Part shown: positions 2,981 to 43,886 of the stretch, piece by piece
Layout of the letters: each line of letters starts with the position of its first letter
Position numbering within the stretch: the stretch's first letter is position 1
Assembly: GCA_903882285.1 (NCBI GenBank)
Contig: CAIRWM010000080.1
Coordinates: forward strand, 1 to 55,344
DNA from: an uncultured cyanobacterium
GTDB lineage: Bacteria > Cyanobacteriota > Cyanobacteriia > PCC-6307 > Cyanobiaceae
Direction: 5' to 3'
Length of the DNA stretch: 55,344 bases
The notes under the pieces: model-generated
The model's database searches: none
What the model saw: only the letters and a program-made list of their open reading frames with translations
What the model was told of the DNA's origin: nothing
Translations under genes and position numbers: made by a program

Positions 2981-3706
2981 ATGGATCCCCGCTTCCGGGT
3001 CGACCTGATCGCCGCCACCCCCAGCCCGCAGCAGTGCGTCTACGCGGGGATGCACCAGGACTACAGCGAGGGCTTCGTGGCGGCGGACCGGGCCGACTGG
3101 CCCGAGGAACGCCGGGCCGGCGAGATCTGCGTCAAGCGCCTGCTGGCTGGTGAGCGGGGCCACTTCGGACCACTGGAACACGCCCAGATCGTGCTCAACG
3201 TCGGCTGGTTCCCCCACTCGGTGATGCAGCAGGCGCGCACCCACCGGGTGGGCGTGAGCTTCGATGTCCAGAGCATGCGCTACACCGGCGACCGGATCCG
3301 CAAGGCGGCCAACGGCGAGCTGGAGCTGGAGGAGGTGGTCTACCTGCGCCCGGTGGGGGAGTACAGCGATCGCCAGGGCAAGAAGTACACCTACAGCCCC
3401 GAGCAGCGGGCCATCGACCTCAACCTCTGCCGCCAGGCTGCGGAGCGCTACCGCGACCTGCTCGATGCCGGCTACGCCGAGGAGCATGCCCGCGGCATCC
3501 TCCCCTTCGACTACCGCCAGCACTTCGTGGTGAGCTTCACGTTGCGGGCCTTCCTGCACTTCCTCGATCTGCGCGCCAAATTGGACGCCCAGCAGGAGAT
3601 CCGCGAGCTCTGCGACCTGATGTGGCCGCACCTGCAGACCTGGACGCCCGAGTTCGCTGACTGGTACGAGAAGAGCCGGCTGCACCGGGCACGTCTTGCT
3701 CCTTGA
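2981..3706 (+). CDS. thyX: FAD-dependent thymidylate synthase ThyX
   Basis: Makes dTMP from dUMP with methylene-tetrahydrofolate, using FAD and NADPH. The 241-residue length fits. The ThyX signature occurs as RTHRVGVSFDVQSMRYTG (about residues 86-103), the cyanobacterial form of the RHR...S motif that binds dUMP and flavin. The ending GFVVSFTLRAF-like segment and the DLMWPHLQTWTPEFADWY tail are also typical. It converges with dcd, which starts the dCTP-to-dUMP route, so two steps of dTMP supply lie side by side on opposite strands. Confidence 0.95.
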   Translation: MDPRFRVDLIAATPSPQQCVYAGMHQDYSEGFVAADRADWPEERRAGEICVKRLLAGERGHFGPLEHAQIVLNVGWFPHSVMQQARTHRVGVSFDVQSMRYTGDRIRKAANGELELEEVVYLRPVGEYSDRQGKKYTYSPEQRAIDLNLCRQAAERYRDLLDAGYAEEHARGILPFDYRQHFVVSFTLRAFLHFLDLRAKLDAQQEIRELCDLMWPHLQTWTPEFADWYEKSRLHRARLAP

Positions 3707-3750
3707 ACCGGCTGGCCCCCTGAACGGTTGACGCCTCCGCCCAGGTCCGC

Positions 3751-4344
3751 CTAGATCCGCGCCAGGGTGACCCGCTCTGGTTGGTGCTGGTATTTACCTG
3801 CGCGATCCTGGTAGGTGGTCTCGCAGGGATCCCCCTCGAAGAACAGCAGCTGGCAGATGCCCTCGTTGGCATAGATGCGGCAGTCAGCACCAGAGGAATT
3901 GCTGAATTCGAGGGTGAGGTGGCCCTCCCAGCTGGCTTCCGCCGGCGTAGTGTTGACGATGATCCCCAGACGGGCATAGGTGCTCTTGCCCAGGCAGATC
4001 ACGGTGATGTTGGCGGGCACCTTCATCTTCTCCAGTGCCACGCCCAGGCCGTAGGAGTGGGCCGGCAGGATGAAGTAGTCACCATCCGCGTCGGAGTGCA
4101 GCGGGGCGGGCTCGAGATTGGCAGGATTGAATCGCTTCGGGTTCATCACCGTGCCGGGCACGTGGCGGAAGATCAGGAACTCCTTCGCCGAAAGGCGCAG
4201 GTCGTAGCCATAGGAGGAGCAACCAAAGCTGAGCACCGGCTGGGTGGCCGAATCGGGCTCAAGGTGGCGCACCAGGGTGGGCTGGAAGGGTTCAAGCATG
4301 CCCACGGCGGCCTGCTCATTGATCCAGCGGTCGTTCTTGAGCAT
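3751..4344 (-). CDS. dcd: dCTP deaminase
   Basis: Deaminates dCTP to dUTP, the precursor for dTMP. The 197-residue length is normal. Visible motifs are SFGCSSYGYDLRLS near residue 40, GKSTYARLGIIVNTTP around 119-134 (nucleotide-binding GKSxxAR), and WEGHLTLEFSN with the likely catalytic Glu146. The trimer-forming C-terminal motif GICQLLFFEGD is present. The sequence fits the monofunctional enzyme; I did not find features that would assign the bifunctional dCTP deaminase/dUTPase. It neighbours thyX, consistent with shared pyrimidine deoxynucleotide supply. Confidence 0.95.
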   Translation of the reverse strand: MLKNDRWINEQAAVGMLEPFQPTLVRHLEPDSATQPVLSFGCSSYGYDLRLSAKEFLIFRHVPGTVMNPKRFNPANLEPAPLHSDADGDYFILPAHSYGLGVALEKMKVPANITVICLGKSTYARLGIIVNTTPAEASWEGHLTLEFSNSSGADCRIYANEGICQLLFFEGDPCETTYQDRAGKYQHQPERVTLARI

Positions 4345-4377
4345 CGGAAGAAGGGGCGGGCGGCGACCCGCGCCGGG

Positions 4378-5076
4378 CTAGAAGCCTCGGCGCAGCTGGG
4401 TGACCTGATCGGCCATCGCCATCAGGGCGGACGGCATTGCCGGCCCCGTCAGGATGACATCCATGTGGGCAGGCCGCTGCTCCAGAGTCGCGGTGACCTC
4501 GTCGGCCGGCAGATAGCCGAGGTCGATGGCCAGGCCGAGTTCGTCGAGCACCAGCAGGTCGAGGCGGCCGGCCAGCAACTGCTCGCGGGTGTAGCCCCAG
4601 ACCTCGGCGACCGCCTGGGGGGCTTCCCCTGAGGCTGGCACCTCCGGATCGGTGTCGGCCGCCGGGGCCTTGATGCACTGCTGCTCGATGCACTGCTGGG
4701 TGGCGGGCCGCAGCCATTCGAGCCGGCCGCACAGCCAGAGACTGCCGGCGGGCCCCTGGTCGACGCCACCCTTGAGGAACTGGCTCACCAGCACGCGGCT
4801 GCCGAGACCGGCGCTGCGCAGCGCCTGGCTGAAGACCGCCGCAAAACTGCCGCGGAACGGGGCGGTGTGGATCTGCAGCAACCCCTCCGGCTGGGGCACC
4901 AGGCGCAGGGGTGGCGCTGGCGGTGGAGACGGCAGCGCCGCCAGCTGGGGAGCCGCCGCTGCCGCTTGCCCGGCGGCAGGTGCTGCCACAACCGCTGCCG
5001 CGGGGGCACCACCCTCGCCGTGCGCGCCGCCGGAGGGCCGCTGCGGCGAGCGGTGACTGGCGAGGCTGGCGGTCAT
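4378..5076 (-). CDS. CobO/BtuR-like P-loop family protein with degenerate Walker A
   Basis: A 232-residue homolog of cob(I)alamin adenosyltransferase CobO/BtuR. The core is recognisable: LLQIHTAPFRGSF where true BtuR has VHTGNGKGKT, then ALRSAGLGSRVLVSQFLKGG, a Walker-B-like DLLVLDELGLA, and VILTGPAMPSALMAMADQVT at the end. The P-loop lysine and Ser/Thr are absent, so ATP binding in the canonical way is doubtful. Related cyanobacterial proteins are usually annotated only as P-loop NTPase family. The ATG at 5076 is chosen because AGAGG lies just upstream; a further in-frame ATG at 5196 would add 40 low-quality residues. The first 60 residues are Ala/Pro-rich linker. Confidence 0.75.
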   Translation of the reverse strand: MTASLASHRSPQRPSGGAHGEGGAPAAAVVAAPAAGQAAAAAPQLAALPSPPPAPPLRLVPQPEGLLQIHTAPFRGSFAAVFSQALRSAGLGSRVLVSQFLKGGVDQGPAGSLWLCGRLEWLRPATQQCIEQQCIKAPAADTDPEVPASGEAPQAVAEVWGYTREQLLAGRLDLLVLDELGLAIDLGYLPADEVTATLEQRPAHMDVILTGPAMPSALMAMADQVTQLRRGF

Positions 5077-20483: not shown

Positions 20484-21800
20484 TCAGAGCGCCAGCCGCA
20501 GGCGGTTGAGCGCCTCACCGATCGCGAGGGTCTGAATCCAGCCGCGGCCACGGGACGCCCCGAACTGCACCGGCTCACTGACGCAACCCGGCGGCCCCGC
20601 CAGGGCGATGTGCACCAGCCCGACGGGCTTGGCCGCCGTCCCACCCCCCGGTCCCGCCACCCCAGTGATCGCCAGGGCCCAGGTGCTGCCGGTGCGCTGC
20701 CGCACCCCCTCAGCCATGGCGCGGGCGACCGGATCGCTGACCGCCCCATGCCGCTCGAGCAGTTCCGCCGGCACGCCCAGCAGATCCCGCTTGACGGCAT
20801 TGGCATAGGCGATCACCCCGCCCAGAAACACGTCGGAGGCCCCGGGCACGGCGGCCAGGGCGGCGCCGAGCCCCCCACCGGTGCAGGATTCCGCCACCGC
20901 CAGGCTGTCGCCGCGGCGGCGCAGAACCGCCAGCACCACCGACGCCAGGCTGTCCTCGTCGAGGCCGAAGCAACAGCGGCCGGTGCGCGCCCGCAGCTCG
21001 GCCTCGAGCGGATCCAGCAGCGCCGAGGCCGCCTGCGCATCGGCGGCCCGGGCGGTGAGGCGCAGCTTCACCTCACCGGCACCGGCATAGGGCGCGACGG
21101 TGGGATTGGCGAGGGCCAGCAGGTCGCTCACCTGCTCCGCCAGGCTCGCTTCCCCCACGCCCCAGAAGTGCAGCATTCGGCTGGCGAAGACCCCTTCCGC
21201 CAGACCGGCCGCCCGCAGCCAGGGCTCGGCTGTGGCCGACCACATCGCCCGCATCTCGCTCGGCACGCCGGGAAAGGTGATCACAGTGAACCCGGGCTGA
21301 AGCGGGAAGGCCAGCGCCTGCGGATCCGGGCTCCAGATCAGGCCGGGGGCGGTGCCGGTGGAATTGGGCAGCAGGGTGGCGCCGCGGGGCAGCAGGGCCT
21401 GGCGGCGGCAACTGGCGGCGATGGGGCGCCCGCGGCCGGAGAGCTTGGTCTGAATGTCGGCCCACACCTCGGAATGCTCCTGCAGAGGGGCACCAAAGGC
21501 GGCCGCCACCGCCTCGGTGGTGAGGTCGTCGGGCGTGGGGCCGAGGCCACCGGTGGTGATCAGCACCCGACAGCGGCCCGCCGCGGCCCGCAGGGCCCCG
21601 ATCAGGCGTTCCCGGTTGTCGCCCACCACCTCCTGGCGGTGATGGGGAAGGCCGAGGGCCGCCAGCCGCTCCGCCAGCCAGCGGGCATTGCCGTTGACAA
21701 TGTTGCCGAGCAGCAGCTCGGTGCCGATACAGAGCACCTCCACCGCCGGTTGAGGGCTGGCAGGCGCCGAATTAGAGCTGGCAGGCGCCGGGCCGCTCAC
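20484..21800 (-). CDS. cinA: CinA-like protein (MoCF domain plus nicotinamide-nucleotide amidase)
   Basis: A 438-residue two-domain protein. The N-terminal domain starts [20 protein letters not shown] and has [15 protein letters not shown], the MoCF/COG1058 fold. The C-terminal CinA domain has [20 protein letters not shown] with the catalytic Ser, then [17 protein letters not shown] and [14 protein letters not shown]. Such proteins hydrolyse ADP-ribose and deamidate NMN. The GTG at 21800 overlaps the stop of the upstream transferase as GTGA. A longer frame back to 21932 would lie inside that gene. Confidence 0.93.
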
Positions 21801-22885
21801 CCGACCTCCTGCTCCTGCTGCATCTGGCGACGGAACACCACCACCACCGCGATCAGCACCGCCGTGGCCAGGGCCAGCCAGAGGAAGCGCAGCTCGGCAT
21901 TGGCCAGCACCAGGGCAAGGGCCGCAAGCCACTGGGTGAAGGCATAAATCAGCACCACCGTGCGCCGGTGACTGAAGCCGGCGCGCAGCAGGCGGTGGTG
22001 CAGGTGACGCCGGTCGGGATAGAAGGGGGAGCGGCCTTCACTGAGCCGGCCCATGATCACCGCCGACATGTCGGCGAGCGGCAGCGACAGGATCAGCAGC
22101 GGCAGCAGCAGGCTGACGCTGGTGAGCCCCTTGGCCGGGCCGACGATGCTCACCGCCGCCAGGGCAAAGCCCAGGAAGTAGGAGCCACCGTCGCCCATGA
22201 AGATGCGGGCGGGGTTGAAGTTATGGCGCAGGAACCCGAGGCAGGCGCCGGCCAGGGCGGCCGCCAGCAGACCGGGGGCCGGCTGGTGCAGGCTGTAGCT
22301 GACGGAGAGCAGGCCCACCGCGGCAATGCCGCTGACCCCGGCCGCTAGGCCGTCGAGACCATCGAGCCAGTTGATGGCATTGGTGATGCCGACAAGCCAG
22401 ACCACCGTCGCCAGCAGGCTCAGGGGCCAGGCGAGCTCGAAGGTGGGATCACCACCGAACAACCCGAAGGGCAACTCGATCGTGCCGATGCGCACCCCCT
22501 CGCTCCAGACCGCCATGGCCACGGCCACCTGGCCCACAAGCCGTGGCAGCGGCGGCAGGGCGAAGAGGTCGTCGGCGAGGCCGATCACGAAGAAACAGAG
22601 GGCTCCCGCCAAGGTGGTCCAGATCAGCTGGTCCTTGTCGGCGGCCAGCTCGGCGAAACCGCCGAGCTGCCAGGTCAGGGCCAGCGCCAGGCTGAACCCG
22701 GCCACGATCCCAACCCCGCCGAGACGCACCATCGGTAGCGTGTGTTGCTTGCGGGAATCCGGTGCATCCACCAGCCCCCACCGCAGACCGAGCCGGCGCA
22801 CCAGGGGCACGATCAGGGCCGTGACTAGGGCCGCGCTGATCAGGGTGAGAAAAGCCGCCGCAATGGGACTGTTGGCGAGCGTCAC
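21797..22885 (-). CDS. WecA/TagO/MraY-type polyprenyl-phosphate sugar-1-phosphate transferase
   Basis: A 362-residue membrane enzyme with about ten hydrophobic helices. It should transfer a HexNAc-1-phosphate to undecaprenyl phosphate at the start of a surface polysaccharide. Family motifs: [34 protein letters not shown] (Mg-binding Asp pair), [32 protein letters not shown], and the late [14 protein letters not shown], the His-box typical of WecA/TagO rather than MraY. It is translationally coupled to cinA and lies 59 bp after glyA. The WecG/TagA gene at 38.8-39.6 kb could work in the same pathway. Confidence 0.88.
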
Positions 22886-36873: not shown

Positions 36874-37032
36874 ATGGCTCTCTCCCTGCTGGCCGGTCTC
36901 TCCGCTGCTCCGCTCGCCCAGCTTCCCGAGGCGTATCAGGCCTTCGGCCCCCTGGTCGACATCCTGCCGATCATCCCCCTCTTCTTCCTGCTACTGGCGT
37001 TTGTGTGGCAGGCCTCGGTGGGCTTCCGCTGA
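36874..37032 (+). CDS. psbK: Photosystem II protein PsbK
   Basis: 52-residue precursor of the small PSII subunit. [20 protein letters not shown] is the cleaved leader plus mature start; the mature part [20 protein letters not shown] and the ending [12 protein letters not shown] are diagnostic of PsbK. It lies 70 bp after tgt on the same strand. It is separated by an AT-rich spacer from the next gene. Confidence 0.97.
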
Positions 37033-37325: not shown

Positions 37326-37982
37326 ATGCATCGCCTGAAAAAATCTTCCCTGGCGATTTCCCTGGTTGGCGCAGGGGCCGCAGTAGCATTGGGATTGGCG
37401 ATGGAGTCGCCGGCCAAGGCGGCATGCATACGATCAACCGATCCTAATTTGGCGGCAGGCAGCAATTGCTCCACTTTTGACTCACTATCTCCATCATTTG
37501 CCATCGTTGCATTTCAGGATTCAAATTTTTTAGCAGCCGTAAATCTTAGACAGATAAGATTTAGAGCCGAAGGCTTCGATCTTAGTTCATATCCAATTAC
37601 TTTGTCAAATATAGCCTATTCGTTTAATGGTGGCAACACCTGGCTAACTGCAGGACTGTCATCTACGAGTTATACGTTAACGGATAATGATGATACTAAT
37701 TTTGGGCCCGACTTGCTAACAACAGACGTAACCAACATACCTGGAGGCCTTCAAAATTTTAGGTTAACTTTTGTAATTCCCGCCGGAAATCTTTCACCGC
37801 TAGGTGCAGGCATTGTCGCTCTTGTTGCTGTAAATGGTAATCCTCCTAATACTATTACTCAGCGCCAGGAGCGCATAAGCATTTTAGCCGATCCTGTTCC
37901 CGGCCCCCTTCCCATTCTTGGGGCTGGAGTTGCCTTTGGTTTTTCCCGCAGGCTGCGTCGTCGCATCCGCCAAGCGGCCTGA
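37326..37982 (+). CDS. Secreted protein with cyanobacterial PEP-CTERM-like sorting tail
   Basis: A 218-residue exported protein. A Sec signal is at residues 1-32 (basic MHRLKKSS, then LAISLVGAGAAVALGLAM, cleavage near AKA-A). The middle is rich in Ser/Asn/Thr beta-strand sequence with no Lys, and contains two Cys residues near the mature N-terminus. The tail ADPVPGPLPILGAGVAFGFS followed by RRLRRRIRQAA is a PEP-CTERM variant: Pro-Gly-Pro motif, short hydrophobic helix and Arg cluster, recognised by exosortases. Base use is unusual: I count 48 G+C in 37441-37560 (40%), far below neighbours, so it may be acquired. The next gene is HpsJ-like. Confidence 0.82.
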   Translation: MHRLKKSSLAISLVGAGAAVALGLAMESPAKAACIRSTDPNLAAGSNCSTFDSLSPSFAIVAFQDSNFLAAVNLRQIRFRAEGFDLSSYPITLSNIAYSFNGGNTWLTAGLSSTSYTLTDNDDTNFGPDLLTTDVTNIPGGLQNFRLTFVIPAGNLSPLGAGIVALVAVNGNPPNTITQRQERISILADPVPGPLPILGAGVAFGFSRRLRRRIRQAA

Positions 37983-38013
37983 AGTTTTCTAAATTTCGTT
38001 CTGAGTTTCCGAC

Positions 38014-38826
38014 TTGGTCTCCCGATTCCGCAGTGCTGAGGTCGGTTTCGCCCTTCACTGGAGTGGCGTCGCCCTGCTCGGTATCTATGTGGTCACGGTG
38101 CTGGCCACAGCCCTAACCAGCCGCTTTCTCGATCCAGCCTGGATTGAACGGGTCGCCGGCAGCCTGCGGGGTGGCGTCAGCTTTCCGCTGATCGCTCTGG
38201 CGCTGATGCTGGTCAGCGCCTATCTCCATGACCCTGATCATCCCAACACCTACCTGCCGCTGGTGAGCCGGCTGGCTTATTTCGCCGCCCTCGGTTTTTT
38301 TCTGCTGATTCCTCTGCAGACCTGGGCATCCTTCCAGTTGCTCTACAAGCTTGGCGGCCAGGAACAGGCGCAGTTGAAGGTGTTCAGCCGCGGCCTGGAG
38401 CGCATCCGCTTCTCACTTACCGAGGAGCAGCTCAGCGACGCGCTTTTTTCCATTCCCGGCGCGCCCCGTCTCACCCCCGGCACCCTCAGCGTCCCTTTCT
38501 CCCAGGCCCGCCAGGGCCTGATCGCCCAGATCGAGCCGCAGCTGCGTGAGCAGGCCGCCCAGCTCAAACAGACCGATGCCATGCGCTGGCGTGAGGCATG
38601 GCCGCGCCTGATCAAGGACGCTTTCACAGACTTGTTTGCGGCCCTTGGGTTTGCGGCGGCCGGTCGCCTTACACCCGAGCGCCCCACCCTGCTGGAGGGC
38701 CTGGTGTTTCCTGAGCTGCGTCGCCTCGGCACCCTGGATCCCCATGTGCAGGCGATGGCCGGCGAATCCGAACAGAATGAGGCCCTCGACAACGAGGCGC
38801 TCGACCAGGACATTCTCTACCCCTGA
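38014..38826 (+). CDS. HpsJ-like membrane protein (exosortase-associated family)
   Basis: A 270-residue protein with three N-terminal helices (about residues 15-34, 50-66, 85-103), then a long soluble helical region. The signature is the loop TSRFLDPAWIERVAGSLRGG, followed by FPLIALALMLVSAYL, which resembles HpsJ proteins that accompany cyanoexosortases and hormogonium polysaccharide genes. The start is uncertain: TTG at 38014 is given. It lies 31 bp after the PEP-CTERM-like gene and converges with the WecG/TagA gene. Family assignment rests on recalled sequence resemblance. Confidence 0.68.
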   Translation: MVSRFRSAEVGFALHWSGVALLGIYVVTVLATALTSRFLDPAWIERVAGSLRGGVSFPLIALALMLVSAYLHDPDHPNTYLPLVSRLAYFAALGFFLLIPLQTWASFQLLYKLGGQEQAQLKVFSRGLERIRFSLTEEQLSDALFSIPGAPRLTPGTLSVPFSQARQGLIAQIEPQLREQAAQLKQTDAMRWREAWPRLIKDAFTDLFAALGFAAAGRLTPERPTLLEGLVFPELRRLGTLDPHVQAMAGESEQNEALDNEALDQDILYP

Positions 38827-38846
38827 ACTATGCGGTACTGCGCCCT

Positions 38847-39554
38847 TCAGCCGGCGCGCATTATCGCCCAGGCGAACGCTGGCAGGGCCAGCATCCGCCG
38901 CCAACGCGAGGGCTCCTGGACCAATCGGTACAGCCATTCGATCTGCAGGGCTCCCATCCACGCGGGGGCCCTTGTTTTAGTGCCGGCCCAGACGTCGAAA
39001 CTGCCGCCGACCCCCATCCACAGGCCCGAGCGCGGGCGGGGCAGCGCCTGGATCCAGATCTCCTGGCGGGGCACCCCCAGGGCCACGAGCACCAGATCCG
39101 GCCGGCAGGCCCGCAGCTGGCGCTCCAGTTCCGGCCAGGCCGCCGCACTCTGATAGCCGTGGGCACTGAACACCACCGCCAGCTCCGGCAGGTCGCGGCG
39201 AAGACGCTGGCGCAGCTGCTCCATCACCGCCGGACTGCCGCCCACCAGGGCCACACGCCAGCCCTGGGCGGCGGCGTGCTCGAGCAGGAAGCGGGCCAGC
39301 TCGATGCCGGGGCTGCGGCGCACCCGATACCCCTGCCGGCCCAGGGCCCAGACCACGCCGGCCCCATCAGGAATCACCAGCTGAGCGCCGGCGATCGCCT
39401 CCCCCAGGCGCGGGTCGGCCAAGGCCACCATCGTCATCTCCGCATTGAGCGTGACGATCTGACCGCCGCCGCGGGCGTAGAGATCCAGGGCGGCGGCGCG
39501 CACGTCAGCGCAGACATCGATCGGCACCCCCAGCACCTGGGTGCGGACCGGCAT
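38847..39554 (-). CDS. WecG/TagA/CpsF family glycosyltransferase
   Basis: A 235-residue GT26 enzyme that adds a second sugar to a lipid-linked precursor of surface polysaccharide. Motifs: LGVPIDVCADVRAAALDLYA, IVTLNAEMTMVALADPRLGE, IPDGAGVVWALGRQGY (catalytic Asp region), VALVGGSPAVMEQL, and LVLVALGVPRQEIWI, then MGVGGSFDVWAGTKTRAP. The ATG at 39554 is used; the C-terminal IEWLYRLVQEPSRWRRM is typical. A lipid carrier enzyme of the TagO type is encoded at 21.8-22.9 kb. Confidence 0.92.
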   Translation of the reverse strand: MPVRTQVLGVPIDVCADVRAAALDLYARGGGQIVTLNAEMTMVALADPRLGEAIAGAQLVIPDGAGVVWALGRQGYRVRRSPGIELARFLLEHAAAQGWRVALVGGSPAVMEQLRQRLRRDLPELAVVFSAHGYQSAAAWPELERQLRACRPDLVLVALGVPRQEIWIQALPRPRSGLWMGVGGSFDVWAGTKTRAPAWMGALQIEWLYRLVQEPSRWRRMLALPAFAWAIMRAG

Positions 39555-42893: not shown

Positions 42894-43886
42894 TCAGATC
42901 GGAGCTTCGAGCGTCATGCAGAGGTTGGGCTGCTCGACGCACTGCTCGATCAGGTCGGCCAGCAGCAGGGCCCGCGAGGCCTGCAGGCCATCGACCGCCG
43001 GTGTCTCATCGCCGCGCACGCACTGCAGGAAGTGCTCCAGCTCGGCGTATAAAGGTTCGATCGAGGTGGTGCTCACCTCCTCGATGAAGCCGTCGTTGCG
43101 ATAGACGAGCTCTCCATGGTCGGCGCTCACCGAGCCGTGGGAGCGGCGGTGAATGCGCAGGTTGTGCTTGAGGAAGTCGGTCTCCATCAGGCTGTTGCGG
43201 CAGTGGGTGTACAACCGCCGCACCTTGCGATGGGCCATCTTGCTGGCCGTCAGGCTGGCCACCACTCCGTTGGCAAAGGCCAGGGTGGCGTTGACGTAGT
43301 CGATCGGGCCATCGCCGCTGCGGCCACCGGCGGCGGCCAGGCGCACCACCGGGGCAGCGGCCAGTTCAAGCACCAGGTCGATGTCGTGGATCATCAGATC
43401 CAGCACCACCGACACGTCGTTGGCGCGATCGGGGTTAGGGCTGTGACGCCGGGCCTCCAGCACGACGATCTCCTCGCCCACCACCACCTTCAGCAGCTCG
43501 CGGAACGCCGGGTTGAAGCGCTCGATATGGCCCACCTGCAACAACGTACCGGCCTGCTCGGCCGCCTGGATCAGCTCGGTCGCCTCCTCCTGAGTGGCAG
43601 CGATCGGCTTCTCGATCAGCACGTGGATGCCGGCCTGCAGGCAGGCCATGCCGACCCGGTGGTGCAGCAGGGTGGGAACGGCGATGCAGACAGCCTCCAC
43701 CTCGGCGAACATCTCGCGGTAGTCGGCGAACCAGCGGCAGTTGAACTGCTCGACGGCCAGGCGGCCCCGCTCCTCATTGAGGTCGGCCACCCCCACCAGC
43801 TCGGCATCCCGCAGCAGGCTCAGCACACGGGCGTGATGCCAGCCCATGTTGCCGATGCCGATGACCCCGACACGCACAGGGTTCAT
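42894..43886 (-). CDS. Gfo/Idh/MocA family oxidoreductase
   Basis: A 330-residue NAD(P)-dependent dehydrogenase. Rossmann motif VGVIGIGNMGWHHARVLSLL at the N-terminus, LIEKPIAAT with the catalytic Lys, HIERFNPAFRELL, then LDLMIHDIDLVLELA, the substrate-binding His-Asp. The set resembles UDP-N-acetylglucosamine 3-dehydrogenase-like members, but substrate is not proven. It converges with the PhK-like gene (2-bp gap) and lies 25 bp after the CNNM/CBS gene on the same strand. Confidence 0.9.
   Translation of the reverse strand: MNPVRVGVIGIGNMGWHHARVLSLLRDAELVGVADLNEERGRLAVEQFNCRWFADYREMFAEVEAVCIAVPTLLHHRVGMACLQAGIHVLIEKPIAATQEEATELIQAAEQAGTLLQVGHIERFNPAFRELLKVVVGEEIVVLEARRHSPNPDRANDVSVVLDLMIHDIDLVLELAAAPVVRLAAAGGRSGDGPIDYVNATLAFANGVVASLTASKMAHRKVRRLYTHCRNSLMETDFLKHNLRIHRRSHGSVSADHGELVYRNDGFIEEVSTTSIEPLYAELEHFLQCVRGDETPAVDGLQASRALLLADLIEQCVEQPNLCMTLEAPI

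Follow-up and report, generated by a model that had tools for sequence, protein, structure and literature searches.

A gene for a secreted protein with a PGPLP-type sorting tail and, directly behind it, a gene for an HpsJ-like inner-membrane protein form a two-gene unit with many counterparts in related cyanobacteria. The pair lies in the window, which is here the whole 55,344-nucleotide stretch analysed, contig C80 of a 2.34-Mb genome in 147 contigs (about 90% complete) from a freshwater Cyanobium-type cyanobacterium. We consider it probable that the secreted protein (the cargo) is an exosortase substrate with the HpsJ-like protein as its dedicated inner-membrane partner, the exosortase being encoded elsewhere, on contig C11. 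Joint membership of the two proteins in an exosortase system is well supported, while the molecular role of the partner is what we infer from genomic support. The tail architecture, the Cys/Arg/His set of the exosortase, the adjacency of the two genes, their co-inheritance and the many-to-one ratio of pairs to exosortase are read directly from the sequences. The arrangement itself had been proposed in a sequence-only reading of this DNA and is real, both ORFs being as claimed, with the HpsJ-like ORF opening on a TTG codon 31 bp past the cargo stop codon. An Rfam scan gave no match, and a search for flanking repeats as the trace of a mobile element returned only repeats at chance level. The coordinates are collected in Table 1.

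Table 1. Features of the cargo-HpsJ locus and of the genes discussed with it (window coordinates).
Feature	Position	Strand	Basis
Cargo gene, putative exosortase substrate	37326..37982	+	ORF; signal peptide, AT-rich probably all-beta body, PGPLP sorting tail
Sec signal peptide of cargo	37326..37421	+	Read from sequence; predicted cleavage after AKA (residue 32)
C-terminal sorting tail of cargo, PVPGPLP + hydrophobic stretch + RRLRRRI	37893..37979	+	Profile A2, TIGR04155
HpsJ-like inner-membrane partner	38014..38826	+	NF050013 E 3.9e-15; predicted structure; tree
psbK, left neighbour of insertion site, outside module	36874..37032	+	84-92% identity in nine relative loci
WecG/TagA/CpsF glycosyltransferase, right neighbour, core gene outside module	38847 to about 39569	-	TIGR00696
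TagO-like gene	21797-22885	-	PF00953 E 1.8e-39

The cargo is a protein of 218 residues that begins with a Sec-type signal peptide, read from the sequence as MHRLKKSSLAISLVGAGAAVALGLAMESPAKA-A, with a KK n-region, a hydrophobic segment at residues 8-26 and an AKA-A site, and ends in the tail PVPGPLPILGAGVAFGFSRRLRRRI. The layout of this tail, VPGPLP-ILGAGVAFGF-SRRLRRRI, is that of an exosortase substrate, i.e. a motif, a hydrophobic helix (its hydrophobic stretch short in this case) and a terminal basic cluster, and eight tail positions are invariant across 14 diverse cargos. The curated model TIGR04155 (cyano_PEP) gives the window tail 15.5 bits against a cut-off of 21.6, matches 3 of the 14 cargos at an E value of 0.1 or better and, when run over the same genome, was too weak for ranking paralogues. 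A tail profile, A2, was built from 35 tails of which the window tail is one row; it detects that same tail at 37893-37976 (E = 4.6e-16, 60.5 bits) and finds exactly two places in the whole genome, each adjoining an HpsJ-like gene. A DNA-pattern search for PGPLP returned matches as numerous as those of a reversed control, the real tails being only those on C80 and C105.

The body of the cargo carries two conserved cysteines, C34 and C48; two relatives, G148 and G062, have same-site orthologues that retain both cysteines and the tail. It is probably all-beta, judging from an AlphaFold model made up mostly of strands at low confidence (mean pLDDT 59.5), and a fold search of this low-confidence model against the PDB gave no match with E < 0.001. 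In one other cargo type (loci G148:C24 and G132:C35) a DUF1194 domain (E = 3e-30) precedes the PGPLP tail. The window cargo body (37430-37880) has a GC content of 42-44%, with third positions at 35-39%, in a window of 70% GC. The genus as a whole leans the same way: over 34 pairs, third-position GC averages 0.60 in the cargos against 0.77 in the HpsJ-like genes, which suggests that cargo bodies are turning over faster than their partners.

The neighbouring protein of 270 residues matches NF050013 (HpsJ_like_A) over the full length of the model (5-207 of 217) at 56 bits (cut-off 140), and NF038305 at 30 bits (cut-off 60). The relationship to HpsJ claimed in the sequence-only reading thus survives the search as a resemblance that, by sequence, is real but distant; in the broad sense the protein belongs to the HpsJ family by its significant full-length similarity and its association with an exosortase. 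NF050013, whose name describes it as cyanoexosortase A-associated, matches all 30 of the aligned HpsJ-like proteins, and NF050014 (HpsJ_like_B) also matches 21 of them. Hydrophobicity indicates three clear membrane segments and a marginal fourth near 201-216. The AlphaFold model, made with an alignment of 30 sequences, is all helical (mean pLDDT 89.5; helices 2-33, 41-53, 56-71, 81-132 and 162-216), with membrane helices near 2-33, 56-71 and 81-105 and with the long helices 81-132 and 162-216 packed as a hairpin, which by the positive-inside rule would be periplasmic. Conserved positions lie in the loop P35...P41-W43 and at P100-Q102. The model had no match in the PDB at E < 0.001, and an enzyme identity is supported by no family match. 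As a single query against the contigs of the genome, the window protein found no match.

Further HpsJ-like genes of the same genome stand apart from this pair. One distant copy (G000:C54:22433-23035) adjoins a DUF502-type gene and nusB and scores slightly better on NF050013 than the window gene does, Synechococcus elongatus matching too; this nusB-linked copy may be independent of exosortases. Two others are frameshifted, on C105 (about 3400-5030) and on C20 (about 43200-43740), and are either pseudogenes or assembly errors. Upstream of the C105 copy lies a cargo with a PGPFP tail, likewise frameshifted.

The window itself holds no exosortase gene, and the sequence-only reading depended on there being one in the genome. 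It is present on contig C11 (G000:C11:11804-12496), where PF09721 matches at E = 3.9e-27 and 95.2 bits, well above the cut-off of 25.7. The best subfamily model is cyanoexosortase A (TIGR03763; E = 3.9e-33), at 115.1 bits against a cut-off of 150. The Cys, Arg and His residues are intact in the motifs CNG, NTMRI and FFH, and these catalytic residues, by which the family is defined, do not vary among 16 aligned relatives. Closely related exosortases are carried by strains labelled Cyanobium, Synechococcus and Aphanothece, among others. Directly downstream of the exosortase is a gene for a protein of 222 residues, found beside nearly every related exosortase examined, on which family models gave no match at E 0.01; TIGR04533, for the exosortase B-associated protein, matched neither in this genome nor in the controls. 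In nearly all related strains a dual-specificity-phosphatase-like gene follows these two. A metagenome-assembled genome labelled uncultured Thiodictyon, a purple sulfur bacterium, also contains a cyanoexosortase-like gene (42% identical) and its partner (29%), through either transfer or mis-binning.

HpsJ-like relatives and exosortases occur together well beyond this genome. Of 151 genomes in the family, 19 have HpsJ-like relatives, and an exosortase is found in 18 of these 19 as against 29 of the 151 overall (Fisher p = 6.7e-15); at the level of genera, with the home genus excluded, the corresponding figures are 6/7 and 5/51 (p = 7e-5). All 42 sampled genomes of the home genus have HpsJ-like profile matches, at 5-20 per genome, counts in which some split genes and the distant copy linked to nusB are included. 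An exosortase was found in 39 of the 42, as a single copy in 33 of the 39. The assemblies of the three genomes lacking a match are broken into 190-340 contigs, with a completeness of 84-95%, and do not establish that the enzyme is absent. Up to a dozen or more pairs in a relative apparently share one sorting enzyme. A direct tie between the parts is provided by a genome of another genus (G102, C1:2272241-2278780), in which a cargo with PGPIS in place of PGPLP, an HpsJ-like gene, an exosortase and a 231-residue exosortase partner are contiguous on one strand.

The pairing was counted in five genomes scanned with the tail profile. Of their 42 HpsJ-like genes, 35 have a PGPLP-tail gene no more than 2 kb away, against 0.8 expected by chance, and 7 have no tail gene nearby; 26 of the 42 directly follow a tail gene of the same orientation. 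This count leaves out the nusB-linked copies (G000:C54, G090:2278540, G113:C15 and G148:C21:73794), one 32-codon fragment and the weak tail match G148:C1 (E = 8e-4), with split pieces merged. It refutes the view that an unrelated membrane gene happens to stand beside a secreted protein, a view that could appeal to tail and HpsJ-like matches both below curated cut-offs and that is hardly credible when two relatives show the same pairing at this very site. Viewed from the cargo side, an HpsJ-like gene lies within 2 kb of 34 of the 57 tail genes but not of the other 23, so the partner is not strictly needed by every cargo. Tandem pairs also occur, three at G113:C25 and two at G148:C33.

Most cargo bodies show no relationship to one another (E < 1e-3 in 35 of 406 comparisons). 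For 19 of 29 HpsJ-like proteins the nearest HpsJ-like relative nevertheless comes with a homologous cargo, where 2000 shuffles gave a mean of 2.5 and a maximum of 12. Cargo and HpsJ-like similarities were also compared by a Mantel test that leaves out two very short cargo bodies. Within a genome the correlation is weak (in G148, p = 0.03 by Pearson and 0.13 by Spearman), and part of the pairwise co-inheritance is between-genome orthology, so that these figures speak for joint inheritance rather than for mutual fit.

The sequence-only reading had gone further and proposed a compact sorting-and-polysaccharide module that included the adjacent WecG/TagA/CpsF gene and a TagO-like first enzyme at 21.8 kb. 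Both genes are present, the former matching TIGR00696 (E = 8.9e-51, 172.1 bits, cut-off 69) and PF03808 (E = 1.8e-53), and the exosortase-linked surface pair stands; their membership does not, and we regard the module as very improbable. The wecG gene is convergent to the pair, which makes a shared operon impossible, and it belongs to a conserved tgt-psbK-wecG-GH15 block. In six of eight relatives (G090, G153, G162, G113, G005 and G132) psbK directly adjoins wecG, no pair intervening, and wecG stays with psbK and GH15; the pair occupies this site only in G148, G062 and the window genome. A single wecG, 73-76% identical, is found in all eight relatives searched. The pair-free sites mark wecG as an old core neighbour. 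On this evidence wecG cannot be counted in the module, and the same holds for the TagO-like gene, which is 15 kb from the pair. Polysaccharide (hps) genes, as expected of a hormogonium polysaccharide locus, are absent beside the pair, whose neighbours are tgt, psbK, wecG and GH15.

Within the block the pair is much the more variable part, with same-site identities of 33-36% for the cargo and 44-48% for the HpsJ-like protein against 73-92% for the surrounding genes; the three same-site HpsJ-like proteins form one clade in the tree (support 100/99). This divergence, the low third-position GC of the cargo body, the presence or absence of the pair at a fixed site and the tandem arrays would all suit a polymorphic recognition or competition system, in which a variable extracellular cargo is matched by a cognate membrane receptor or protective partner. 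We consider such a system improbable, since a search for toxic domains in the 14 cargos found none (DUF1194, in one cargo, was the only domain) and the tail and exosortase already account for the cargo as an ordinary surface protein. A stronger competitor, though still rather unlikely in our view, takes the HpsJ-like protein for an accessory that serves slime export in general, as HpsJ does for hormogonium polysaccharide, with adjacency serving co-expression only and no cargo specificity. It draws on the name of HpsJ in the hormogonium polysaccharide set, on the additional NF050014 matches and on the tail genes that lack an HpsJ-like neighbour. It leaves unexplained why a genome should hold 5-20 diverged copies, and it is opposed by the co-inheritance of particular HpsJ-like proteins with particular cargo families and by the lack of a site-specific polysaccharide cluster beside the window pair.

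We therefore return to the reading of the cargo as an exosortase substrate with a dedicated partner. In the exosortase class, substrates are exported by Sec, anchored in the inner membrane by the tail, processed by the exosortase and released, along an undefined route, to either the surface or the polysaccharide (PMC1569441, PMC12188702). The window cargo would likewise be exported by Sec and then stay anchored in the inner membrane through its C-terminal PGPLP-helix-Arg tail. The single cyanoexosortase A-like enzyme may cleave this tail at the periplasmic face, and the processed protein would end up on the cell surface or in the mucilage. The neighbouring HpsJ-like protein would be an inner-membrane partner dedicated to this cargo, with a helical stalk in the periplasm, and would most likely hold the cargo or present it to the exosortase or an export route. 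Relatives appear to multiply this cassette, the cargo bodies being mostly unrelated while the tail and the partner family remain constant. A more tentative extension, possible at best, is that the HpsJ-like paralogues are cargo-specific specificity factors and that one exosortase serves exchangeable two-gene cassettes which are gained, lost and duplicated, giving each strain a surface-protein set of its own, which might serve colony formation or recognition.

We know of no molecular role for HpsJ. The pairs bear on how an exosortase chooses its substrates and how these leave the cell, and may show how cells choose the proteins of their slime coat. With many substrates each having an HpsJ-like neighbour and one exosortase in common, the genus offers a direct genetic test. 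NCBIfam model names already link HpsJ-like proteins to cyanoexosortases A, B and C, and a search of the literature outside subscription papers found no description of Cyanobium PEP-CTERM proteins or of multi-copy cargo-HpsJ pairs; the new element is the multi-copy pairing with one exosortase.

The system shares with PEP-CTERM/exosortase (EpsH) sorting (PMC1569441) the signal peptide, the motif-helix-basic tail and a same-genome exosortase with Cys, Arg and His. It differs in its PGPLP motif, which falls below the TIGR04155 cut-off, and in that an HpsJ-like gene accompanies most tail genes, whereas most PEP-CTERM genes are single-gene operons (Haft 2006, PMC1569441). Cyanoexosortase B of Nostoc punctiforme (PMC12188702), also from a cyanobacterium, likewise has many substrates and is followed directly by an associated gene; the C11 enzyme, which comes from a unicellular genus, most resembles cyanoexosortase A. 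The Nostoc punctiforme locus sits in a polysaccharide gene cluster, and the same paper leaves the outer-membrane route of the substrates undefined and HpsJ undiscussed. The proteins behind NF050013 and NF050014 are the nearest relatives of the partner by model match and by the cyanoexosortase A link in the model name; set against them, the window protein scores far below the NF050013 cut-off, and its family is multi-copy and cargo-paired rather than one per genome. The two-gene pairs of MrtJ and JDVT-CTERM (PMC11980579) also place a tailed target beside one dedicated gene, but there the partner is the sorting protease, whereas here no match makes the partner an enzyme, and many pairs seem to share one exosortase.
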